Below are positions 1-23,871 of a stretch of 24,223 bases of DNA, piece after piece (the stretch's first letter is position 1; the number at the start of each line of letters is the position of its first letter). The translations under genes and the position numbers were made by a program. This DNA comes from a virus. A model generated the notes under the pieces. That model saw nothing but the letters and a program-made list of their open reading frames with translations, did not search any database and was not told where the DNA came from. The stretch is taken from IMG/VR virus record IMGVR_UViG_3300009149_000275, positions 1 to 24,223 of that record; one strand, given 5' to 3'.

Positions 1-306
1 GATGCAGCAAATGCACTCCGCAGAAGAATAGACGATATTGACTTCAATAACACAACAGAACTAAACTCAACAATATATTTCTGTCGTTTGAATCACAATG
101 AGTTCAACTATAGTTCAAACCCAACTTATCTAAGTTCAAGCAAAATAGTTGTAAAGAATACACAACTTGACAACCCAGTTGCTTATATAACATCAGTTGG
201 ATTATATTCAGCAGATAATGAACTTCTTGCTGTTGCTAAACTCAGTGAGCCATTGAAGAAAGATCCAGCCAACGAGATGATCCTTCGCGTGAGACTTGAC
301 TATTAA
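1..306 (+). CDS. Virion structural protein, C-terminal part (5' end outside window)
   Basis: The frame is open from base 1 to the TAA at 304-306, so this is the last ~101 codons of a longer gene; a TTG at 88 is internal and not a start. The tail of the product (SSNPTY, then AYITSVGLYSADNELLAVAKL and a K/R-rich end) matches the tail of the gene at 1361-2317 (SNNPTY, YISKIAIYDEEKNLIGIAKL). The two are therefore paralogues, probably both virion surface or tail-associated proteins. No catalytic motif is seen. The structural role is inferred from the paralogue and the run of structural genes that follows. An endonuclease gene lies between the two paralogues. Confidence 0.7.
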   Translation, partial: DAANALRRRIDDIDFNNTTELNSTIYFCRLNHNEFNYSSNPTYLSSSKIVVKNTQLDNPVAYITSVGLYSADNELLAVAKLSEPLKKDPANEMILRVRLDY

Positions 307-333: not shown

Positions 334-362
334 TTTACACTCCACAAGTTTTCTGTTATAGT
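334..362 (+). promoter_or_regulatory. Sigma70-type promoter for the endonuclease gene
   Basis: TTTACA (334-339), a 17-base spacer and TATAGT (357-362), with TG at 354-355 giving an extended -10 (TGTTATAGT). Each box matches the consensus at 5 of 6 positions. The expected transcription start is near 369, just upstream of the ribosome-binding site of the endonuclease gene. The left arm of an inverted repeat (343-355) lies in the spacer, so transcripts from this promoter would lack it. Confidence 0.6.
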
Positions 363-404
363 GCTATTTACCAACAGAGGTGATAGCGATGCAGAAAACT
401 TGTG
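343..404 (+). promoter_or_regulatory. Long inverted repeat flanking the endonuclease RBS and start
   Basis: CACAAGTTTTCTG (343-355) and CAGAAAACTTGTG (392-404) are perfect 13-base complements. Their loop (356-391) holds the Shine-Dalgarno GAGGTGA (377-383) and the ATG at 389. Only transcripts starting upstream of 343 can form this hairpin. By analogy with T4 I-TevI, whose early read-through RNA hides its start in a hairpin while a promoter inside it yields translatable RNA, this is probably a translational switch. Confidence 0.6.
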
Positions 405-1328: not shown

Positions 1329-1357
1329 AAACTGCCTATTTATTTTAGGCAGTTTTT
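1329..1357 (+). terminator. Rho-independent terminator after the endonuclease gene
   Basis: AAACTGCCTA (1329-1338), loop of 7 (1339-1345), TAGGCAGTTT (1346-1355), with a T-run at 1353-1357: a perfect 10-bp stem. It ends 3 bases before the ATG of the next gene, and the only AGG upstream of that ATG (1347-1349) lies in its 3' arm. It may therefore also limit translation of read-through RNA. Confidence 0.75.
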
Positions 1358-2622: not shown

Positions 2623-3192
2623 ATGTCAGTAAAAATATCCCAACTATCTGCTTCAAGCGACATAACATCAGATGATTTTTTCCCAGTTGTTGATAGTGGA
2701 AGTCTGACAACAAAAAGAGCATCTGCACAGCAAATGCTTGATTATATTACTGGCTCAACTTTTAACACCCTAACTGTAACAACTCTTGGTGGAACAACCG
2801 CACAGTTTACAACAACAACTGCCACTACTGGAGCATTTACTATACTATCTGGCTCTTCTGGAAATATAACTATTTCCGGTTCACTTTCTGGTATGATAGC
2901 ATCTTTGACTTCTTCTGCTGCTGACTATGTTCTTGTAGCAGCAGATAGTGGAAAAGTAGTTGTCTTGAGTTCTTCCTCTGGTATTACTGCGTCTGTTCCT
3001 GCAGGACTTCCTGCTGGATTCACCACAACTATTATTCAAAATGGTTCTGGTTCAATATTTGTATCAGCAAGTTCTGGTGTAGTGATAAGAAATAGACAAA
3101 ATCACACAAGAACTGCTGGGCTTTATGCAACAGTTGCCATTATTGGAACTGGTAGTAATGGATATATATTTGCAGGAGACACAACCTCTTGA
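2623..3192 (+). CDS. Tail-fibre-like protein
   Basis: 189 residues. The N terminus (KISQLSASSDITSDDFFPVV, then TTKRASAQQMLDYI) follows the KISQL...D.FPVVD...T.K....Q.L pattern that I associate with phage tail-fibre or virion adaptor proteins. It is followed by Thr/Ser-rich repeats (GGTTAQFTTTTATTGAFTILSGSSG) typical of fibrous trimeric beta structures, and a compact C-terminal part. The repeats resemble those of the gene starting at 23281, suggesting related fibre components. Shine-Dalgarno GAGGAAG (2609-2615) stands 7 bases before the ATG. Receptor binding or fibre assembly is inferred, not shown. Confidence 0.65.
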   Translation: MSVKISQLSASSDITSDDFFPVVDSGSLTTKRASAQQMLDYITGSTFNTLTVTTLGGTTAQFTTTTATTGAFTILSGSSGNITISGSLSGMIASLTSSAADYVLVAADSGKVVVLSSSSGITASVPAGLPAGFTTTIIQNGSGSIFVSASSGVVIRNRQNHTRTAGLYATVAIIGTGSNGYIFAGDTTS

Positions 3193-3575
3193 TAATAGTT
3201 TTTCCTGGTGTTATTGGAGCCATAGCAACAAAAAAGGAACTAAATATTCCAACTTTTGCTGGCTCTGCAACATTTACAGAAACTTATGAATATCCAGATT
3301 GGGTTGGAACATATGATACTGGTTCAATAGTTATTCCAACCTTTTCCGGTTCTGCAACATTTACAGAAACTTATGAATATCCAGATTGGGTTGGAACATA
3401 TGATACTGGTTCAATAGTTGTTCCAACATTTTCTGCTTCAGCAACATTTACAGAAACTTATGAATATCCAGATTGGGTTGGAACATATGATACTGGTTCA
3501 ATAGTTGTTCCAACATTTTCTGCTTCAGCAACATTTACAGAAGAATTTGAATCTGGTTCTTGGCCGAACCCATGA
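3189..3575 (+). CDS. Repeat protein made of 29-residue units
   Basis: 128 residues; nearly the whole protein after residue 19 is 3.8 copies of a 29-residue unit (IPTF-x2-SATFTETYEYPD, WVGTYDTGSIV). The last copy changes to TEEFESGSWPNP. The TTG start overlaps the previous TGA (TTGA), and AGGAGA (3174-3179) stands 9 bases upstream, which supports it; there is no ATG option. The units look like stacked beta-strands with aromatic faces. A virion or fibre role is likely from context, but the fold is not recognised. Near-identity of the units at DNA level suggests recent expansion. Confidence 0.65.
   Translation: MIIVFPGVIGAIATKKELNIPTFAGSATFTETYEYPDWVGTYDTGSIVIPTFSGSATFTETYEYPDWVGTYDTGSIVVPTFSASATFTETYEYPDWVGTYDTGSIVVPTFSASATFTEEFESGSWPNP
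3246..3575 (+). repeat. 87-bp tandem repeat, about 3.8 copies, in frame
   Basis: Unit boundaries are 3246-3332, 3333-3419, 3420-3506 and 3507 to the gene end. The last ~66 bases of the first three units appear identical in DNA, and differences cluster in the first ~21 bases. The fourth copy matches the third until its TEEF divergence. The unit length is a multiple of three, so copy-number change keeps the frame. Confidence 0.9.
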
Positions 3576-6611: not shown

Positions 6612-6655
6612 TAGACTAGCAGTTTGACAACTTTTTGCCACTCTGCTATGGTCTA
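6612..6655 (+). promoter_or_regulatory. Imperfect inverted repeat before the primase gene
   Basis: TAGACTAGCAG (6612-6622) is complementary to CTGCTA-TG-GTCTA (6643-6655) with a 2-base bulge. The 20-base loop contains the -35 box of the candidate promoter, and the right arm overlaps its -10. It could be an operator, or an RNA hairpin in upstream transcripts ending 3 bases before the primase ATG. Confidence 0.45.
6624..6652 (+). promoter_or_regulatory. Sigma70-type promoter before the primase gene
   Basis: A perfect TTGACA (6624-6629), 17-base spacer, and TATGGT (6647-6652) with an upstream TGC giving an extended -10. It lies in one of the few real intergenic gaps. The expected start is about 6659, the primase ATG itself, so its transcripts would be nearly leaderless. 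Confidence 0.55.
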
Positions 6656-6658
6656 GGG

Positions 6659-7600
6659 ATGTCCGATCAGAAAAAAGAAGAAATCTTAATTGATGTTCTT
6701 GGCACTCCCCATCGTTCTGGTGGGGAGTTGCTTTTTTATTGCAAAAAGTGCAATCATCATAAACCAAAACTCTCCTGTAATGTCCGTAAAAACGCTTTCA
6801 AGTGTTGGGTATGCAACTTTACGGGAAGCAACTTAGGAAGGCTCATAAAGCGTTATGGCTCGTATAAACAGAAACAAGAATGGGGTAGGTATGATGACAA
6901 AATTGATTTGTCTTCCGTTTCGTTTGCAGATACTTTATTTGGAGAACAAAAAACAGATCAAGCAAACATTTCACTACCTAAAGAGTTTGTTACCCTAACT
7001 GGAAAATACAACCCAGTGAGTTCCGCTCCATTGAGATATTTGCATGAGCGCGGGATAAGTAAAGAAGATATTCTAAAATGGAAAATAGGATATTGTCCCG
7101 ATGGAGAATATGTTGGTCGTGTTGTTGTTCCAAGTTTCAATCTTGAAGGAAAAATAAACTATTTTGTTGCCCGTTCATATCGCGATGATTGGATGAAATA
7201 TAAAAATCCACCGGCTCACAAGAATGAAATAATATTCAACCAGTTGTATATTGACTGGTCCAGCGATCTTGTATTGACAGAGGGTGTATTTGATGCTATT
7301 ATAGCCGGCAATGCTGTACCATTGCTTGGCTCAACACTGCCGGAAACCAGCAAACTATTTCAAGAAATAGCAAAACACGACACTGCCATATACGTAGCAC
7401 TTGATCCGGACGCAGAAAAGAAAGCAAAGCATCTCATAAAAGATATGATCCAGTATGGTATAGAAACTTATAAAGTTGATGTTCGTGGCTTTCAAGATGT
7501 TGGCAGTATGACAAAAGAGGAGTTTCAGGAAAGAAAAGCAGTGGCATTACCAATGACACAAGAAAGTTTGTTTAGATATCAAATACAAGGAATAACATGA
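6659..7600 (+). CDS. DNA primase (zinc-binding and TOPRIM domains)
   Basis: 313 residues from the ATG at 6659. The N-terminal zinc site comprises C28, C31, C49 and C52 in FYCKKCNHH...FKCWVCNFTG. The C-terminal TOPRIM core has the glutamate motif VLTEGVFDAIIAG (E208) and the acidic motif YVALDPDAE (D249, D251). Between them lies the usual primase segment (RYLHERGISKEDI, then GRVVVPSFN). It should make RNA primers at the replication fork, the role of gp61 in T4; no helicase gene is in the window. The open frame reaches a TTG at 6635 without an RBS. The ATG has only AGGG directly before it, so initiation may be leaderless. Its TGA overlaps the next ATG. Confidence 0.85.
   Translation: MSDQKKEEILIDVLGTPHRSGGELLFYCKKCNHHKPKLSCNVRKNAFKCWVCNFTGSNLGRLIKRYGSYKQKQEWGRYDDKIDLSSVSFADTLFGEQKTDQANISLPKEFVTLTGKYNPVSSAPLRYLHERGISKEDILKWKIGYCPDGEYVGRVVVPSFNLEGKINYFVARSYRDDWMKYKNPPAHKNEIIFNQLYIDWSSDLVLTEGVFDAIIAGNAVPLLGSTLPETSKLFQEIAKHDTAIYVALDPDAEKKAKHLIKDMIQYGIETYKVDVRGFQDVGSMTKEEFQERKAVALPMTQESLFRYQIQGIT
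6704..6737 (+). terminator. Terminator-like hairpin inside the primase reading frame
   Basis: ACTCCCCA (6704-6711), 9-base loop, TGGGGAGT (6721-6728), then a run of six T (6732-6737). It is a perfect 8-bp GC-rich stem, about 45 bases after the predicted transcription start. It encodes GTPHRSGGE, a conserved-looking stretch of the zinc domain, so it may be coincidental or act as an attenuator. Confidence 0.4.
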
Positions 7601-7731
7601 AAGTCTATATTGTAATAGAAGTTTGGTATAGCAATACAGATTTAGTTGCTTGTTTTGCCAAAAAAGAAGATGCAGAAAAGCTTATTGAAAATAAACGTAA
7701 TTTTTCTATTGTAGAAATGGATGTAAAATGA
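7597..7731 (+). CDS. Micro-protein of 44 residues
   Basis: Joined to both neighbours by ATGA overlaps: its ATG overlaps the primase stop and its TGA overlaps the next gene's ATG. AAGGA (7587-7591) stands 5 bases upstream. The product begins MKVYIVIEVWYSNTDLVACF and continues with AKKEDAEKLIENKR, a beta-beta-helix pattern often seen in tiny phage proteins of unknown role. The perfect nesting in the operon supports it as a real gene. Confidence 0.7.
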   Translation: MKVYIVIEVWYSNTDLVACFAKKEDAEKLIENKRNFSIVEMDVK

Positions 7732-9893
7732 TTAAAATCGCTCATATAAGTGACACACACGTCAGAAATCTAAAATATCACGAAGAATATACCCAAGTAT
7801 TCAATAAAATCTTTTCTCTTCTCCGGGAAGAGAAACCAGATTGCATCGTCCATACGGGCGATATTGCTCATACAAAAAATCAAATATCGCCAGAGTTTGT
7901 TGAAATGTGTTCTTGGTTTTTAAACCACCTTGCGAACATTGCTCCAACTTTTGTTATTCTTGGCAATCACGACTGTAACCTCAAAAATGATACTCGCCTA
8001 GACAGTATTTCTCCTATTGTTTCGGCACTAAATCATACAAATCTGGCACTTTGGAAGTATTCCGGAGAAAGATTCTTCGGTCATAATCTTGCTTTCAATG
8101 TAATGTCACTAATTGATGAAGACAAATGGGTAAAACCAAGTGATCCAAATCGTATTAATATTGCTCTTTATCACGGTGCTATAGCTGGTGTATCAACAGA
8201 TATCGGATACACTATGGAACACAGTGATCATGATGTTTCAATTTTTGAAGGTCACGATTATGCTTTTCTTGGCGATATTCACAAGACAAATCAAATTGTT
8301 GATACAGAAGGTCGTGTTCGTTATCCAGGCTCAACCATTCAACAGAATCATGGAGAAACAGACGATAAGGGCTTTCTTATTTGGGAAATTGAAGATAAAA
8401 ACCAGTTTGATGTTAGGCATGTTGCTATCCCACACCCAAAGCCATTTGTAACTATCAAGCTTGATGAAAATGGCAAGTTTGATGAAACAGCCAGTATAAA
8501 GACAAACGCCCGTATTCGTGTTATGGCTGATAGCAATATTTCGGCAAATGAAATAAGAAAAACACTTGATATTATCAAAGTAAAGTTTCAACCAGAAAGT
8601 GTTGCCTTTCTAAACAAGGCAACAAGCAGAATAGATATAACAGAAACCATCAACAAGATGGAAGATGAAGATTTACGTTCAATATCAACACAAGAAAAAC
8701 TGCTTGCTCAATATCTAAAAGATTACAATCCAACAGCAGAAATATTGCAAAAAGTATACGAACTAAATAAAAAATATAACTCTATTGCCGAAGAAAATGA
8801 AGAAGTATCCAGAAACATTCGTTGGACAATCAAGTCATTGATGTGGGACAATATGTTCAACTATGGAAAAGATAACTCAATAGATTTCCAAAAACTAAAT
8901 GGTGTTGTTTCTCTAAATGGTCCCAACGGTCAAGGAAAGTCTGCCATTTTGGACTCAATGCTTTGGGGTATGCAGAACTCAACAAGTAAAAATGTTCGTA
9001 AAAATGTAAATATTATCAACCAAAACCAAGACAATTGTCGTGTTGTTGTTGATCTGCTTGTTGATGACAAACAATATACTATTGAAAGAACTGCTGAAAA
9101 ATATACTAAAAAACTAAACGGCGAAGAAACACTTGAAGCAAAAACTGATGTTTCTTTTAGTGTTTGTGACATTGGAGAGAGTGAAGATTGTGAAAAGTTT
9201 GAAAAAGGCAACCTAAATGGTCTTGATCGTAACGAAACAGATAAAAATATTCGTAAAGTATTTGGAACACTGGAAGACTTTCTTTTTACCTCTATGTCTT
9301 CCCAACTTGGCTCTCTTGACTTCATCAACGAAGGTTCAACTCGTCGCAAAGAAATACTTGGAAAGTTTCTTGACCTTGATATATTCGCTAAAAAATATAA
9401 ACTTTCCAATAGTGAAGCAACAGAACTAAAAGCAGCACTAAAAAGACTTGAAACAAAAAACCACGATCAAGAAATATTGGAAACATCTATAAAGTTAGTT
9501 GAACTAAAAGGTAAAGCACAGCAACAACTTGACGAGTGCGAAGAAATAAAAAATGAAATAAAAACACTAACAGAACAAATAAACAACATAAACATAGAAA
9601 CTGCTTCTATGCCGAAGATAGATGTTGTTGATATTGACAATGCCAAACTGTCACTGGAAAAAATATGCAGCGATATAGAAAAGTTTGGCAAAACAATGAA
9701 AGAAAATAGCGACTTTTATACAGAAAAAGAGCGAGCACTTGATGTTGCTAAAAAAGTTGTTGCTGGCATAAAAATAGAAGAAATAAATAAAAATAAAAAT
9801 ATTATAACAGAAAAAAACAAAGAACTTGACAAAGTATTGAGGCAAATAAGTGAGCTTGAAAAAGATATTCTCCGTGACAAAAAAGATATATAG
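7728..9893 (+). CDS. Mre11/SbcD nuclease fused to the N-terminal half of Rad50/SbcC (gp47-gp46 type)
   Basis: 721 codons to a TAG. Residues 1 to about 345 are an Mre11/SbcD-type phosphoesterase: D9-x-H11, G44-D45, G79-N-H-D82, H149 and G182-D-I-H185. From about 364 a Rad50/SbcC ATPase begins (WTIKSLMWDNMFNYG) with Walker A GPNGQGKS (398-405), then a long Lys/Glu-rich coiled coil to the stop. In T4 these are separate genes, 47 and 46, whose products resect DNA ends for recombination and degrade host DNA; here they are one frame. The next reading frame is in phase and supplies the rest of Rad50, so this is a fusion interrupted by one stop codon. An assembly or sequencing error is also possible. 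Confidence 0.85.
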   Translation: MIKIAHISDTHVRNLKYHEEYTQVFNKIFSLLREEKPDCIVHTGDIAHTKNQISPEFVEMCSWFLNHLANIAPTFVILGNHDCNLKNDTRLDSISPIVSALNHTNLALWKYSGERFFGHNLAFNVMSLIDEDKWVKPSDPNRINIALYHGAIAGVSTDIGYTMEHSDHDVSIFEGHDYAFLGDIHKTNQIVDTEGRVRYPGSTIQQNHGETDDKGFLIWEIEDKNQFDVRHVAIPHPKPFVTIKLDENGKFDETASIKTNARIRVMADSNISANEIRKTLDIIKVKFQPESVAFLNKATSRIDITETINKMEDEDLRSISTQEKLLAQYLKDYNPTAEILQKVYELNKKYNSIAEENEEVSRNIRWTIKSLMWDNMFNYGKDNSIDFQKLNGVVSLNGPNGQGKSAILDSMLWGMQNSTSKNVRKNVNIINQNQDNCRVVVDLLVDDKQYTIERTAEKYTKKLNGEETLEAKTDVSFSVCDIGESEDCEKFEKGNLNGLDRNETDKNIRKVFGTLEDFLFTSMSSQLGSLDFINEGSTRRKEILGKFLDLDIFAKKYKLSNSEATELKAALKRLETKNHDQEILETSIKLVELKGKAQQQLDECEEIKNEIKTLTEQINNINIETASMPKIDVVDIDNAKLSLEKICSDIEKFGKTMKENSDFYTEKERALDVAKKVVAGIKIEEINKNKNIITEKNKELDKVLRQISELEKDILRDKKDI

Positions 9894-9896
9894 ATC

Positions 9897-10904
9897 TTGG
9901 ATGAGGTTCCATGTGGAAATACTTTTCCTACCTGTAAGTTTCTTACCAGTGCCTTTCAAAAGAAAGATCAAGTCGCTGATAAAAGCGATCTTGTTCTTAT
10001 AGCAAATAGAAGAAAGCAAGAAATAGAAAAAACAATAACAGAACTAAATCCAGAAGAAATAGAAAAGTCTATAGTTTCTCGTAACCTTATTTTAGAAAAA
10101 ATAAGAAATATGGAAACTATTGTAGCAAACAAGAAACTTGAGAACGAACAACTAAATGGCAAAATAATAGTTTCACAAAGTATGATAGAGAAGTTGGAAA
10201 AGAAAATAGAAAACTATTATAAAAACGAAGAAGTAGCACTCAAACTAAATGAACTAACTAAAACAAAGCAAAGTCTTGTTGAAAAAAGCGATAAACTAAC
10301 GAAACAACTAAGTGTTTGCGAAGCAAGTATAGTAAAACTACATCGGGAGCAGGGTTCTTTGGAACAAAAACAAACTGACCTTGAAGAATCAAAAGCAGAA
10401 CTTGCCAAACTGCGAGATGAATATGCTGCTATTTCTATGTTTGAAAGAGCGATGCACAGCAATGGAATAAGTTATGATATTATTCGTAAAAAACTTCCAG
10501 TTATAAATGAAGAAATAGCAAAAGTTCTTGCCAATATTGTTAGTTTTGAAATCTTTTTTGAAGATGATGGCAAAAAACTTGACATTCTTATCAAGCATCC
10601 AAAATACGAAAAGCGCCCTATAGAACTGGCAAGCGGAGCAGAAAAAAGTCTTGCTGCTATGGCAATAAGACTTGCTCTAACAAAAATAACTTCACTTCCA
10701 GTGGGCGATATAATGATATTAGATGAACCAGCAACATCTCTTGATGAAGAAAACATGGAAGGATTCACAAGAATGCTTGATATGCTAAAAGCCAGTTACA
10801 AAACAATATTATTAATATCACACTTGCCAGAACTAAAAGATATTGCCGACATGCAGATACTTATTAGTAATAACAATGGTTATGCACATGTGGAGGTAAA
10901 ATGA
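9897..10904 (+). CDS. Rad50/SbcC C-terminal half (gp46 type), in phase after the TAG
   Basis: Same phase as the preceding frame, separated only by TAG (9891-9893) and ATC. It opens with a zinc-hook-like cysteine pair (PCGNTFPTCKF), continues as the returning coiled coil, then has the ABC signature (ELASGAEKSLA, near residue 245), Walker B (IMILDEPATSLDEEN, near 275) and a switch histidine (LLISHLPE). The only start near the beginning is the TTG at 9897, with no Shine-Dalgarno, so independent translation looks weak. Either read-through yields a ~1057-residue SbcD-SbcC, or the halves are separate chains meeting at the apex, or the gene is broken. It ends by ATGA overlap with the next gene. Confidence 0.8.
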   Translation: MDEVPCGNTFPTCKFLTSAFQKKDQVADKSDLVLIANRRKQEIEKTITELNPEEIEKSIVSRNLILEKIRNMETIVANKKLENEQLNGKIIVSQSMIEKLEKKIENYYKNEEVALKLNELTKTKQSLVEKSDKLTKQLSVCEASIVKLHREQGSLEQKQTDLEESKAELAKLRDEYAAISMFERAMHSNGISYDIIRKKLPVINEEIAKVLANIVSFEIFFEDDGKKLDILIKHPKYEKRPIELASGAEKSLAAMAIRLALTKITSLPVGDIMILDEPATSLDEENMEGFTRMLDMLKASYKTILLISHLPELKDIADMQILISNNNGYAHVEVK

Positions 10905-13138: not shown

Positions 13139-13425
13139 AAATAACTAAAGCAAGACTATTACAGATCATTCGTGAAGAAGTTGAACTTCACGAAAAGTAT
13201 GTTGAAGAAAATGTTCTTGAACTTGATGAAGAAGCCCTTGAAGAACTATCAAAAGAACAGGGCGAAAAAGCTATTGAAAAAGAAATAGCTTCTGATGAAG
13301 CTGCTGGAAGATTAGTTGCCAAGAAAAAAGCCGAAACTATGGAAGAAAGCGATGTTGAAGAAGACAAACTTTTAGATCCTAAAACTAAAAAACCAGTAAA
13401 TGGCACAAAAGCAAATGATATATGA
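13135..13425 (+). CDS. Small acidic helical protein before the terminase
   Basis: 96 residues from the ATG at 13135, overlapping the previous TGA; the frame opens upstream at 13108, but that lies inside the previous gene. The product is strongly acidic and helical (ENVLELDEEALEELSKEQ). Its N terminus (MKITKARLLQIIREEVE) matches those of proteins in the prohead block (MKVTKKELQKIIKEEL at 20344). It overlaps the terminase ATG (ATGA). By position it could be a small terminase subunit, but the N-terminal motif points instead to a prohead or internal protein. Undecided. Confidence 0.55.
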   Translation: MKITKARLLQIIREEVELHEKYVEENVLELDEEALEELSKEQGEKAIEKEIASDEAAGRLVAKKKAETMEESDVEEDKLLDPKTKKPVNGTKANDI

Positions 13426-16214
13426 GTTATGTTCTTACAAAAGATCAAGTAAAGGAAGAAATAAAGAAATGTGGGCGTGATCCCACATACTTCATTACAA
13501 ACTATTGTAAGATTTCACATCCAGAAAAAGGCTTGATACCATTCAGTTTGTATGGTTATCAACAAGAAACAATAAAAGCATTTGAAGATTATCGCTTCAA
13601 CATAGTTCTAAAAGCCCGTCAGTTAGGTTTATCAACCGCTGTTGCGGGTTATATTGCTTGGATGCTTCTTTTTCGTAGACAAAAAAGCGTTCTTGTTGTT
13701 GCGACAAAACTTGATGTCGCTGCCAACCTTGTAAAAAAAGTTAAAAAGATGATAAAAAGTCTGCCAACTTGGCTGAATATCGCTGATATATCAATAGACA
13801 ACCGAAATAGTTTTGAACTAAATAATGGTTCATGGATCAAAGCATCCTCAACCAGCGAAAGTGCTGGTCGTTCGGAAGCCTTGAGTCTTCTTGTTATTGA
13901 CGAAGCAGCATTCGTTGAAGGTATGGAAGATCTGTGGAAAAGTATATTCCCAACACTATCAACCGGTGGTCGTTGTATTGCTATTTCAACTCCAAATGGT
14001 GTTGGAAGTTGGTTTCATGAAACTTATATAAATGCTGAAAACAAAACAAATGACTTTAATGCCATAAAACTAAACTGGGATGCTCACCCAGAACGAGATC
14101 GCGACTGGTTTGAAGCCGCCACTCGTAACATGAATAGGCGAGATATAGCGCAAGAATATGAATGCCATACTGGAGATACGCGAATATTGACTCCCAATGG
14201 TTTTGAATTTATAAAAGACCTAAAATTAGGCGATTTAGTATTAACCCACCAGGGTAGATTTAGGAAAGTTATACGTACATTTAATAAATTTATAGAGAAA
14301 GAAAACTTGGTATCTATTTCTACTCCTATGAGTAGAAAAAATGTTATTAATATAACCAAGGAACACCCAATTCTAACTGCAGTTCGAACAAAAAGCGATA
14401 GTTATAATATATATAATGAAATTGATGTAGATTGTTATGAAGAAAAATGGCTCAACACGCAGCAAATAAAAGAATTGTATGAAGACTATACCGTCCCTCA
14501 ATATCTGACTGCTTTGATACCCAAGCTAACTAATGAAAATTTCAAAAACAACATTAACGTATTTGATTTCGCACATTTTTATATACACAAAGAAGTTGAT
14601 GAAAAAAATATCAGAACCCACAGACAAAAAGGAAATAACAACAGATTTATAAATATCAACTATGATACCGGAAAAATAATAGGTCTTTATCTCGCAGAGG
14701 GTCACTCTAATGCAAAAGAAACCACATTTTGTTTCAACAAGGATGAGGACGATTTGATCCAATTTGTTTCAGAGTGGGCAGACAAACATAACTTTATAAA
14801 TCGTAAAAATGTTCGAAACTATTCAAATTGTACAACTGTTCATGTATCAAATAAGTTTTTATCTTTATTCATAAAACACTTTGTTGATGGGAATAATTGT
14901 TATAATAAAATTTTAAATAATAATATATATGAATATTCATTAGATTTTATCAAAGGCATAGTTGATGGCATATGGCTTGGCGATGGTCTTCATATGCCTG
15001 ATAAGAAAAATGTTTTAGGACTAACAAATGATAAACTTATATATCAAATAAGAATGTTGATGACTGCATTCAATTTAATAACTCGTGTTTCATCAGTGCA
15101 TCAAAAAACTTTTAATAGAAATAATAAAACAAGATATTATTTGGAATTAAACAATGTAGCTGGAAACAATATTGAAAAATGTACATCAAATGGGATTGAA
15201 CATAAAAAAGGCCAAAGAACCAAATTTTCTCACAATAAGTGGTGGGGACGCCCAACTATAACAAAATTTGTTAGCGAAGAAAAGATAGTACAAGTCTTCA
15301 ATATAGAAGTTGAAGAAGACAATTCATATGTAGCTGAAAATCTTGTAGTACACAACTGCAGTTTCAATGCGTCTGGTGAAGGCGTAATAAACTCACAAGA
15401 CCTACAAGAAATAAGAGAAGGTGTCTTAGAGCCAAAATATCGCACAGGTTTTGATAGAAACTATTGGATATGGGAAGAAGCAAGACAAAACTTTTCTTAT
15501 CTTCTTGTTGCCGATGTTGCTCGCGGAGATGGAAAAGACTTTTCTGCTTTCCATGTTATAAAACTTGAAACAATGGAACAAGTAGCAGAATATCAAGGTA
15601 AAATAGCACCTGATATTTATGCCGATATGCTTTTCCAGACAGGTAAAGAATATAATACTGCTCTTCTTGTTGTAGAAAATAACAATATCGGCTATAACGT
15701 TCTTGATAAACTTATAGAAAGAAAATATCCAAATATTTATTTTTCAATAAAATCAACACATGAGTTCATAGAACAAGTTCAAGCAGAAAGCATGACCAAC
15801 AGCGTTCCAGGTTTTACAACAACACAAAAAACAAGACCACTCATAGTGGCAAAACTTGAAGAGTTTATCCGGAATAAGATGATAAAAATATACTCTAATA
15901 GAATGGTTGAAGAACTATCTACATTTGTGTGGAACAATGGTCGCCCAGAAGCAATGAAAAATAGAAACGACGATCTAACAATGTCGCTTGCTATTGCTTG
16001 TTGGGTGCGCGATACGGCACTTACAACTTCACAACGAGATGTTGAATATACAAAAGCAATGTTTAATGCTATAACGATGGCAAATACTCGCGTTCAGACT
16101 AAAATACCTGGCCAGATAGGCTATAATAGCAACTATTCGTTAGACGAAAAAAGAGTAAATCAAAAAGAACTAAAAGAGTTCTACAAAATGTATGACTGGC
16201 TTTATAAAGGATAA
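13422..16214 (+). CDS. Terminase large subunit (gp17 type) with an intein
   Basis: 930 codons; removing the intein (residues 248-645) leaves a 532-residue terminase. ATPase domain: deviant Walker A KARQLGLS (64-71), Walker B LLVIDEA (156-162), coupling motif AISTPNG (187-193). The RNase H-like nuclease domain starts after the intein with LLVADVARGDGKDFSAF (first Asp), then ALLVVENNNIG and the last acidic motif RNDDLTMSLAIACW. It packages DNA into the prohead through the portal and cuts it. The intein interrupts the ECSF sequence between the two domains, so packaging depends on splicing. The start overlaps the previous stop (ATGA) with no clear Shine-Dalgarno. Confidence 0.92.
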   Translation: MSYVLTKDQVKEEIKKCGRDPTYFITNYCKISHPEKGLIPFSLYGYQQETIKAFEDYRFNIVLKARQLGLSTAVAGYIAWMLLFRRQKSVLVVATKLDVAANLVKKVKKMIKSLPTWLNIADISIDNRNSFELNNGSWIKASSTSESAGRSEALSLLVIDEAAFVEGMEDLWKSIFPTLSTGGRCIAISTPNGVGSWFHETYINAENKTNDFNAIKLNWDAHPERDRDWFEAATRNMNRRDIAQEYECHTGDTRILTPNGFEFIKDLKLGDLVLTHQGRFRKVIRTFNKFIEKENLVSISTPMSRKNVINITKEHPILTAVRTKSDSYNIYNEIDVDCYEEKWLNTQQIKELYEDYTVPQYLTALIPKLTNENFKNNINVFDFAHFYIHKEVDEKNIRTHRQKGNNNRFININYDTGKIIGLYLAEGHSNAKETTFCFNKDEDDLIQFVSEWADKHNFINRKNVRNYSNCTTVHVSNKFLSLFIKHFVDGNNCYNKILNNNIYEYSLDFIKGIVDGIWLGDGLHMPDKKNVLGLTNDKLIYQIRMLMTAFNLITRVSSVHQKTFNRNNKTRYYLELNNVAGNNIEKCTSNGIEHKKGQRTKFSHNKWWGRPTITKFVSEEKIVQVFNIEVEEDNSYVAENLVVHNCSFNASGEGVINSQDLQEIREGVLEPKYRTGFDRNYWIWEEARQNFSYLLVADVARGDGKDFSAFHVIKLETMEQVAEYQGKIAPDIYADMLFQTGKEYNTALLVVENNNIGYNVLDKLIERKYPNIYFSIKSTHEFIEQVQAESMTNSVPGFTTTQKTRPLIVAKLEEFIRNKMIKIYSNRMVEELSTFVWNNGRPEAMKNRNDDLTMSLAIACWVRDTALTTSQRDVEYTKAMFNAITMANTRVQTKIPGQIGYNSNYSLDEKRVNQKELKEFYKMYDWLYKG
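14163..15356 (+). other. Intein with LAGLIDADG homing endonuclease in the terminase
   Basis: 398 codons in frame. It begins with Cys (CHTGDTRILTPNGFEFI, block A), has the block B histidine in NITKEHPIL, and ends in VAENLVVHN followed by Cys (blocks F/G with the terminal His-Asn and a +1 Cys). Two LAGLIDADG-type motifs lie inside: IGLYLAEGHS and IVDGIWLGDGLH, both with the acidic residue. The endonuclease thus looks intact. Its DNA is visibly richer in AT and TTT/AAT/TTA codons than the flanking terminase, consistent with a different history. Confidence 0.92.
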
Positions 16215-20343: not shown

Positions 20344-20919
20344 ATGAAAGTAACAAAAAAAGAACTACAAAAAATAATAAAAGAAGAACTTGATGAAATG
20401 ACAGCAGCAGGAGAACTTGAAGAAGGTTTTCTTGACAAACTACTTGGCAAAGAGCCAAAGTTTGGTGATTTTGTTACAGATGATGATGTAAAAAAGAAAC
20501 TTGATGTAGTTCAAAAAAATCTCGGTGATCTGCGAGGACTTGCTTCAAAACAAGATAACAAAGAACTTGGCTTACAAGTAACAAAAATATCAAAAGATGT
20601 AGCTGGTCTTTATAGCAAGACAACGCCTAAAGGCCCAGAACTAAAGACAATAACCGATAAACCAGAAGATATAACACTTCGCAATACGATGTCTGCTCTT
20701 GCTGATCCAAAAAGAAGAAGTAAGTTATCAACAGAACGTTTAGTAGGAATGCTATCTAAAATAGCGCCAACAGAAAAGGTTCCAACAGGTCCAGATGGTA
20801 GACCTGATAGAGCGAAACTAATGAGTTTAGTTCAACAAAAACTACAAAGTATGCCAGATGTTAGAACATTTCAAGGCGGAAGACCAGCCAGACTTCGTTC
20901 TCGGCCTGTTGGTGAATAA
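20344..20919 (+). CDS. Putative prohead-core or internal protein with targeting-like N terminus
   Basis: 191 residues; AAGGG lies 9 bases upstream of the ATG. The N terminus (MKVTKKELQKIIKEELDEM) is followed by GELEEGFLDKLLG; the next gene has the matching pair EFDTILQEE and GVQEGFLDRIKD. In T4, internal head proteins carry a short N-terminal capsid-targeting sequence removed by gp21 after L/I-x-E, and LEE|G fits that rule. The remainder is helical and charged with a basic C terminus (RPARLRSRPVGE), as expected for DNA-associated internal proteins. The role is inferred from motif and place between portal and protease. Confidence 0.6.
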   Translation: MKVTKKELQKIIKEELDEMTAAGELEEGFLDKLLGKEPKFGDFVTDDDVKKKLDVVQKNLGDLRGLASKQDNKELGLQVTKISKDVAGLYSKTTPKGPELKTITDKPEDITLRNTMSALADPKRRSKLSTERLVGMLSKIAPTEKVPTGPDGRPDRAKLMSLVQQKLQSMPDVRTFQGGRPARLRSRPVGE

Positions 20920-23037: not shown

Positions 23038-23241
23038 ATGAAAGTAAGTTTAGATGAAGTTGATGGCAATGTAGAAAAAATGATAAAAAAGTTTGTCAAA
23101 AAAACAAAAAAAATGAAAATAGTAGAACAAGTGTATGATCGCAGATATTTTGTAAAGCCTTCTATGGAAGAACATACAAAGCGTAGACAAAAGGCAAGAG
23201 CCATAGAAAAAGAAAAAGCAGAAGCAGGAAAAGAAGACTGA
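23038..23241 (+). CDS. bS21-like ribosomal protein
   Basis: 67 residues from the ATG at 23038 (GAGG 6 bases upstream); an in-frame TTG at 23014 overlaps the previous stop but lacks an obvious site of its own. The product aligns by eye with bacterial bS21 over most of its length: VEKMIKKFVKKTKKMKIVEQ against the helix around ALRRFKRSCEKAGVLAE, and YDRRYFVKPSMEEHTKRRQK against RREFYEKPTTERKRAK. bS21 sits by the anti-Shine-Dalgarno on the 30S subunit. Phage copies are known and thought to enter host ribosomes and favour phage mRNA. Location at the end of the head block is odd for that role. Confidence 0.65.
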   Translation: MKVSLDEVDGNVEKMIKKFVKKTKKMKIVEQVYDRRYFVKPSMEEHTKRRQKARAIEKEKAEAGKED

Positions 23242-23246
23242 AAAAC

Positions 23247-23276
23247 TACCTATATATAAATGTATATGTGTAGGTA
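23247..23276 (+). promoter_or_regulatory. Hairpin hiding the RBS of the tail-fibre-like gene, with late-promoter-like box
   Basis: TACCTATATATA (23247-23258) pairs with TATGTGTAGGTA (23265-23276): 12 bp with two G-T pairs, loop of 6. The AGG of the likely Shine-Dalgarno (23272-23274) lies in its 3' arm. TATAAATG (23255-23262) differs at one base from the T4 late promoter TATAAATA; a transcript starting from it would lack the left arm. Confidence 0.4.
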
Positions 23277-23280
23277 AATA

Positions 23281-23871
23281 ATGGCAAAAATAATAATAAA
23301 AAACAGCGAAATATCAAGTTCTGCCGGGATAAACATTCCTGGCAACCTGTCTATTGCTGGAGATACAGTAATAGGCGATTTATTTACTGACACTCTTACT
23401 ATTAATGCCCACGCAACTTTTAATGAAGATATAAGTGCAGAAGAAGTTGTTATAAGTTCTTCTTTCAAAGGTGATGGTTCCCAGCTGCACAGCCTAACTG
23501 CTTCAAATATATCAAATTTTACAAATGATGTAAGAAGCAAATTTTCAGCCGGAACAAATATAACAATATCTAATGGTGTTATTTCGTCAACTGCTGCCGG
23601 TGGAACTGCCGGTGGAACTCCCGGTGGAACAAACCAAACAGTTCAGTTCAACAGTGGTAGCACATTCAGTGGTTCAGCAAACCTGATATACAATTATACA
23701 ACAAACACATTAAGTGGAACAACGGCAGAATTTACAACAGTAACGGCGAGCAATGTTCTTATACATGGCACAGCAAGTTTATTTTCAAGTCCTCAAACAG
23801 CATATGTTTATATGATAGTGCAAGCGATAAAGTTTCAGTTTTTCCAGGTTTATCTGTTACTGGCTCTATAA
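23281..23871 (+). CDS. Tail-fibre-like protein, N-terminal part, frameshifted near 23811
   Basis: 196 codons to TAA. The first ~180 residues are fibre-like: GINIPGNLSIAGDTVIGD, FKGDGSQLHSLTASNISNF, a Gly/Thr-rich turn region (GGTAGGTPGGTNQTVQFN) and T-A-x-F-T-T-V-T-A-S-N repeats, akin to the protein at 2623-3192. After SSPQTAYVY the frame turns into an unlikely hydrophobic tail (MIVQAIKFQFFQVYLLLAL), while the -1 phase continues the fibre pattern to the window end. The real protein is thus probably longer, and the TAA an artefact of a frameshift or a truncation. Confidence 0.65.
   Translation: MAKIIIKNSEISSSAGINIPGNLSIAGDTVIGDLFTDTLTINAHATFNEDISAEEVVISSSFKGDGSQLHSLTASNISNFTNDVRSKFSAGTNITISNGVISSTAAGGTAGGTPGGTNQTVQFNSGSTFSGSANLIYNYTTNTLSGTTAEFTTVTASNVLIHGTASLFSSPQTAYVYMIVQAIKFQFFQVYLLLAL

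Follow-up and report, generated by a model that had tools for sequence, protein, structure and literature searches.

How is an endonuclease gene expressed when it lies just downstream of a structural-region gene, the read-through RNA of which could fold over its ribosome-binding site? We addressed this question in a 24,223-nt stretch of viral DNA (hereafter the window), an IMG/VR record that represents a 24-kb fragment only. The features of the locus are collected in Table 1.

Table 1. Features at and around the endonuclease gene of the window
Feature	Position	Strand	Description and basis
End of upstream structural-region gene	1..306	+	Conserved 71-93% in relatives; its read-through RNA would form the hairpin
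Sigma70-like extended -10 match	334..362	+	TTTACA 334-339, 17-nt spacer, TG 354-355, TATAGT 357-362; predicted start ~369
Hairpin 5' arm	343..356	+	13 bp perfect, plus U356-G391; repeat search and folding
Inner stem, 5' side	362..372	+	Pairs with 379-388, includes end of Shine-Dalgarno; minimum-energy and centroid fold
Late-promoter-type box GCTATTTA (CTATTTA 364-370)	363..370	+	Inside hairpin; strand-biased intergenic word; predicted late start ~376
Shine-Dalgarno AGAGG	376..380	+	Sequence; partly paired in read-through RNA (fold)
Inner stem, 3' side	379..388	+	Folding
Endonuclease gene, 307 aa	389..1312	+	CxxC zinc-finger repeats, weak NUMOD3, C-terminal TnsA-like PD-(D/E)XK nuclease domain
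Hairpin 3' arm	391..404	+	Last ATG base and endonuclease codons 2-5; repeat search and folding
Second hairpin	1329..1355	+	CTATTTA box 1336-1342 at loop, T-run; directly before gene at 1361

The TnsA-like nuclease domain of the encoded protein was identified by Pfam (PF08722, E 5e-14), and NUMOD3 stayed below the cut-off. The PHROG profiles matched by the protein were HNH-endonuclease and head-closure. The neighborhood of the gene is T4-like, with a gp20-type portal, a T4-type terminase, and primase and gp46/47-like genes. Judged by the portal protein, the closest cultured relatives are Microcystis phage Mel-JY01 and Flavobacterium phage immuto. Since the portal identity to these cultured phages was only about 40%, the group was regarded as uncultured.

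Hairpin over the endonuclease start

A perfect 13-bp inverted repeat was found at the start of the endonuclease gene, with its arms at 343-355 (CACAAGTTTTCTG) and 392-404 (CAGAAAACTTGTG) separated by 36 nt. It is the sole perfect inverted repeat of at least 13 bp with a loop of at most 60 nt that the window holds; when all 24 kb were dinucleotide-shuffled, the average was 0.06 such repeats. The RNA fold of 335-415 reached -31.3 kcal/mol (shuffles, -13.3 +/- 2.8; z -6.4) and that of 343-404 reached -28.9 kcal/mol (z -7.3), values reached by no shuffle in either case. The fold z at the endonuclease start was the lowest among 30 gene starts in the window. By these z values and by the cost of opening it (15.6 kcal/mol, see below), the computed hairpin over the Shine-Dalgarno (SD) sequence and AUG in the read-through RNA is stable and exceeds chance.

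Both the minimum-energy and the centroid fold contained an inner stem, in which 362-368 and 370-372 pair with 379-388, including G379-G380, the last bases of the SD sequence. In the outer stem, the third base of the ATG and endonuclease codons 2-5 are paired, and A389 and U390 are left unpaired. A previous reading of this locus, made from the letters alone (hereafter the sequence-only reading), had described the 13-bp repeat as looping out the SD sequence and the ATG. The repeat was exact, and the structure proved to be stronger than described, with the inner stem and a z of about -6 to -7. The SD sequence and the ATG are indeed enclosed by the repeat, but they are not merely looped out, because G379-G380 and the G of the ATG are paired.

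Late-promoter-type box inside the hairpin

The hairpin contains a late-promoter-type box at 363-370, about 26 nt before the endonuclease ATG. This box had been overlooked in the sequence-only reading. In intergenic DNA of relatives, words of this type were confined almost entirely to the forward strand. The counts (forward vs reverse) were 33 vs 0 for ACTATTTA, 37 vs 3 in one set and 17 vs 0 in another for CTATTTA, and 11 vs 0 and 7 vs 0 for the variant words ACTAATTA and ACTACTTA, respectively. Over whole records, the strand skew of CTATTTA was 40:4, 34:3, 3:36, 1:33 and 1:20, and the reversed control word was far less skewed. The boxes cluster 24-29 nt upstream of start codons, and those of the window precede the genes at 389, 1361, 2623, 4438 and 5598, all of which belong to the structural region or encode the endonuclease. 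A gp55-like late sigma factor is encoded in 22 of the 22 relatives tested (phrog_234, E 1e-9 to 3e-4), by a profile that matches cellular sigma factors too in some control genomes. We infer that the CTATTTA-type box is the late promoter of this phage group. What counts against this assignment for the window box itself is the G before its CTATTTA, since A occupies that place in 87% of boxes. None of the papers listed named CTATTTA as the late promoter of a phage, which is weak evidence given the limited literature coverage.

The box is placed so that an RNA from the predicted start at about 376 would lack the 5' arm, a geometry equal, at the sequence level, to that of I-TevII.

Other candidate words were discarded. 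The T4 late box TATAAATA occurs 5 times in the window against 2.3 expected, with none at the hairpin. An exact-pattern scan of viral contigs for CAAGTTTTCTG as a shared promoter word was uninformative, the matches listed lying on scattered contigs. Most occurrences of TATCGTGC, considered as a second promoter word, fell in coding DNA or in a single conserved element upstream of the gene at 20344.

Accessibility of the ribosome-binding site

The opening cost was computed as the cost of keeping positions -14 to +3 single-stranded. It was 15.6 kcal/mol in the read-through RNA, 5.4 kcal/mol in an RNA started at 369 and 2.6 kcal/mol in one started at 376. This calculation agrees with the earlier proposal that read-through RNA would hide the start and that RNA begun at about 369 could not. 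For most other boxed endonuclease genes the opening cost dropped from 10-20 to 1-5 kcal/mol, and the median gain was 9.4 for endonuclease genes vs 1.3 for 155 control genes. When the window and its homolog in the relative L093 were left out, the test still gave p 7e-5. T4 I-TevII served as a positive control; it carries TATAAATA at -26 inside its hairpin, and its opening cost fell from 15.0 to 7.8. The opening cost alone is unspecific, as T4 gene 55 scores high too. The argument therefore rests on the hairpin, the position of the box and the recurrence of both, in combination.

Recurrence in unrelated endonuclease genes

Endonuclease genes in related records were sought with GIY-YIG, HNH_3, NUMOD3 and the window protein, and their families were checked by Pfam. 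In the GIY-YIG genes of L327, L329, L330 and L012 and in the HNH gene of L332, the box was enclosed by a hairpin over the ribosome-binding site (RBS) or lay in its 5' arm. The same layout was observed in L326, before a Phage_endo_I-type zinc-finger gene. In these unrelated genes the enclosed segment always held the SD sequence, the ATG or both. The neighbors of the L327 gene are primase and gp47-like.

The recurrence was also examined mechanically over 177 boxed genes, with the endonucleases selected only by protein regular expressions. A z below -2.4 was found for 8 of the 11 boxed endonuclease genes vs 11 of the 166 other boxed genes (Fisher p 5e-7), and the two classes also differed in z (Mann-Whitney p 9e-5) and in RBS pairing (1e-5), although these p values are indicative, since the z threshold was set after seeing the values, the seed case was included and there is some relatedness among the other genes. 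In endonuclease genes that have no box, the hairpin was mostly absent, and in the pool of all endonuclease matches, with or without a box, the contrast to control genes was weaker (p 0.003). Some non-endonuclease genes carry box hairpins too, a point against the switch proposed below. Within an HNH endonuclease family, RBS hairpins were frequent, and the covariation analysis found no clean compensatory pair.

Gain and loss of the gene at one site

The only full-length homolog of the window endonuclease in the viral and genome scans was that of L093, an intact gene, 47% identical, at the same site. In L093 the partner of the corresponding 5' region (TGTTTTCTGCTACTATA) is another 3' arm, TATAGGAGGCAAAAAACA, which lies over the SD sequence and the AUG (-12.4 kcal/mol; 1-2 of 200 shuffles as good), and the box is present. 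This structure, apparently kept despite changed pairing partners, is supportive as a single comparison.

Other relatives showed different states of the same site. In L233 and L235 (about 2801-2930) the repeat AAGTTTTC marks a junction between half of the promoter region, the first, and the last 28 endonuclease codons, and these scars apparently arose by deletion at this repeat. About 24 endonuclease codons remain in L251. L082-L084 keep the promoter and the 5' arm, with the endonuclease gene absent, and in L085, L086, L230 and L232 nothing of the endonuclease was found at the site. Such presence and absence at one site, with decay remnants, is what gain and loss of a homing endonuclease would be expected to produce. 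The promoter region, we infer, was part of the endonuclease cassette.

Proposed switch

On the combined evidence, the region probably works as a translational switch with a nested promoter, as in T4 I-TevI/I-TevII, and its late promoter is divergent. Read-through RNA that comes from the structural gene upstream would fold over 343-404, as computed, so that the SD sequence and the start codon would be hidden, and it would yield little or no endonuclease. At the box, a gp55-like sigma factor would start RNA at about 376, some 6 nt downstream of the box; this RNA would lack the 5' arm and its SD sequence would be free. The motif, the geometry and the comparison suggest that endonuclease synthesis would be late and confined to the gene's own transcript. 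The effect would be that the expression of the mobile gene is uncoupled from the transcripts of neighboring genes. The I-TevI logic invoked in the sequence-only reading was recovered in that the RBS-hiding hairpin would form only in the read-through RNA, and the later-started RNA would lack the 5' arm.

The neighbors of the gene in the window are a structural region with late-type boxes; early or middle read-through RNA, a typical but not necessary feature of T4-type switches, is thus not what the window gene would be silenced in. Since the upstream structural gene itself appears to be late, the switch would not be purely a timing device as in T4. Among structural genes, its effect would lie more in the choice of the RNA to be translated than in the time of translation.

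Sigma70-like match and alternative explanations

The left arm of the hairpin sits, as had been described, within the 17-nt spacer of a sigma70-like match that scores 10/12 and has a TG before the -10 element. In the first 3 kb, 16 sites of such quality were found vs 11.7 +/- 3.3 expected in this A/T-rich DNA; taken alone, the match is not beyond chance. In the homologous gene of L093, TTAACA-N17-TACTAT with TG shows two blocks with 17-nt spacing as in the window, and the layout is still present in L082, which has lost the endonuclease gene (TTWACA-N17-TGYTA is common to L093 and L082). The conserved blocks in L093 and the presence of the site in L082 leave room for a second start. The sigma70-like site, which overlaps the late box, may provide it at about 369, and RNA from there would likewise escape the hairpin.

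A bolder and more doubtful extension is that two working promoters share one hairpin, an early one of the sigma70 type and a late one of the gp55 type, and that RNA from either begins 3' of the 5' arm. Its own RNA would then yield the endonuclease at early and late times alike, and RNA of the neighbors would never do so; the arrangement would be a context-independent expression cassette of mobile genes, built independently in this phage group for GIY-YIG, HNH and PD-(D/E)XK endonucleases.

In the sequence-only reading, the host-type site at 334-362 was itself the working promoter, and the endonuclease would be made early, while late read-through RNA would leave it silent, which reverses the T4 order. 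We consider this unlikely. The frequency of such matches is at chance level. Directly 3' of the match, the same hairpin holds the late-type box, which is the element common to the other endonuclease genes, whereas no sigma70-like site of the 334-362 type was found before the box-in-hairpin endonuclease genes of related phages. The proposal does draw on the 10/12 match with its extended -10, the recurrence of the layout in L093 and L082, the strong sites of this kind that precede apparent tRNA genes in relatives, and the release of the RBS by a start at 369 (5.4 vs 15.6 kcal/mol). Expression that is on early and off late had rested on the host-type promoter; with a late-type box in the same hairpin it is not the best reading, and it would be possible only if the sigma70-like site were the main promoter.

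The inverted repeat could instead be a DNA operator, with the zinc-finger endonuclease binding the dyad across its own promoter and repressing transcription, as I-TevI autorepresses at its operator (PMC2988022). The dyad spans both promoter elements and one arm persists without the gene in L082-L084. The arm sequence, however, is not kept in L093, where other partners pair, and the other endonuclease genes have unrelated arms with the same RNA geometry. An operator in place of the RNA switch is highly improbable, while an additional operator role would be compatible with the switch. Least credible of all is a hairpin that acts mainly as a terminator/attenuator or RNase III processing site, ending or cutting the read-through RNA: a T-rich TTATTTGT follows the 3' arm and the group has further hairpins that combine a late box with a T-run (e.g. 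1329-1355), but the stem base is A/T-rich, the enclosed segment is long and, in unrelated endonuclease genes, always includes the SD sequence and/or ATG, and the hairpin was not called by a terminator scan.

Comparison with known systems

Control of endonuclease genes by RBS hairpins is known for I-TevI, I-TevII, I-TevIII, segB and Aeh1 mobE (PMC2988022; PMC3014915). T4 I-TevI and I-TevII resemble the proposed switch in that the endonuclease SD sequence and start are hidden in a read-through hairpin and the RNA from the nested promoter lacks the 5' arm; I-TevII also shares the late box at about -26 from the ATG. The T4 genes are intron-encoded, with early or middle host genes and the late box TATAAATA, whereas the window gene is free-standing between structural genes and has the box GCTATTTA and an overlapping sigma70-like match. 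Aeh1 mobE and T4 segB, like the window gene on the proposed reading, are free-standing mobile endonuclease genes with a late promoter and an RBS hairpin (PMC2988022). Those two encode HNH and GIY-YIG enzymes in T-even relatives; the window gene encodes a zinc-finger TnsA-like nuclease in an uncultured group. At the level of sequence, the window case has the features of the known T4-type RBS-hairpin endonucleases.

What is known of this control comes mainly from T-even phages. The proposed switch would broaden it to a TnsA-like nuclease and to a large T4-like group that is uncultured and has another late-promoter box. The box-in-hairpin layout shared by unrelated endonuclease families suggests repeated selection, by which mobile genes would be shielded from read-through expression. 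For phages that have no cultured members, the box is also a candidate late-promoter sequence, testable in metatranscriptomes.

Other features of the window and its relatives

The same computed switch was seen at the second hairpin, where the opening cost changed from 16.6 to 3.3 kcal/mol. This hairpin is terminator-like and is kept in relatives with and without the endonuclease. It resembles the control of T4 genes e, soc and 49, in which the same read-through silencing acts on the phage's own genes, not mobile ones (PMC3014915). The ATG of the structural gene at 1361 adjoins the hairpin, with no clear SD sequence. Similar boxes in hairpins followed by a T-run precede other genes in L040 (8342) and L076 (4060). 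The boxes in these three T-run hairpins are putative late promoters nested in terminators.

Promoter-like sequences were also noted elsewhere. In L047 (about 3086-3146) the TTGACT-N17-TATAAT match of a gp47-like gene is followed within 10 nt by a ACTATTTA box, a possible tandem early/late promoter outside the endonuclease genes. Apparent tRNA genes in L311 (1180 and 4018) and L312 (550 and 3349) are directly preceded by near-perfect sigma70-type promoters with an extended -10 (TTGACA-N17-TATNNT), and HNH endonuclease genes that carry RBS hairpins follow in L335 and L334. At 6624-6659 of the window, TTGACA-N17-TATGGT with TG before the -10 has its predicted start on the ATG (6659) of a primase-like gene, the mRNA of which is possibly leaderless. 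A strong 12-bp hairpin at 23223-23281 (z about -4 to -5) contains TATATAAATG and lies directly before the gene at 23281.

Further genes of the window deserve mention. The terminase large-subunit gene (13422-16214) holds an intein, with Hint matches near residues 243-330 between the terminase halves. The reading frames 7728-9893 and 9897-10904 are in the same frame and resemble a single fused gp47/gp46-like protein that is interrupted by one TAG (9891-9893) near a CxxxxxxC-type hook; this may be a real split, read-through or a sequence error. The short gene at 3189-3575 encodes near-identical protein repeats (TFTETYEYPDWVGTYDTGSIV).
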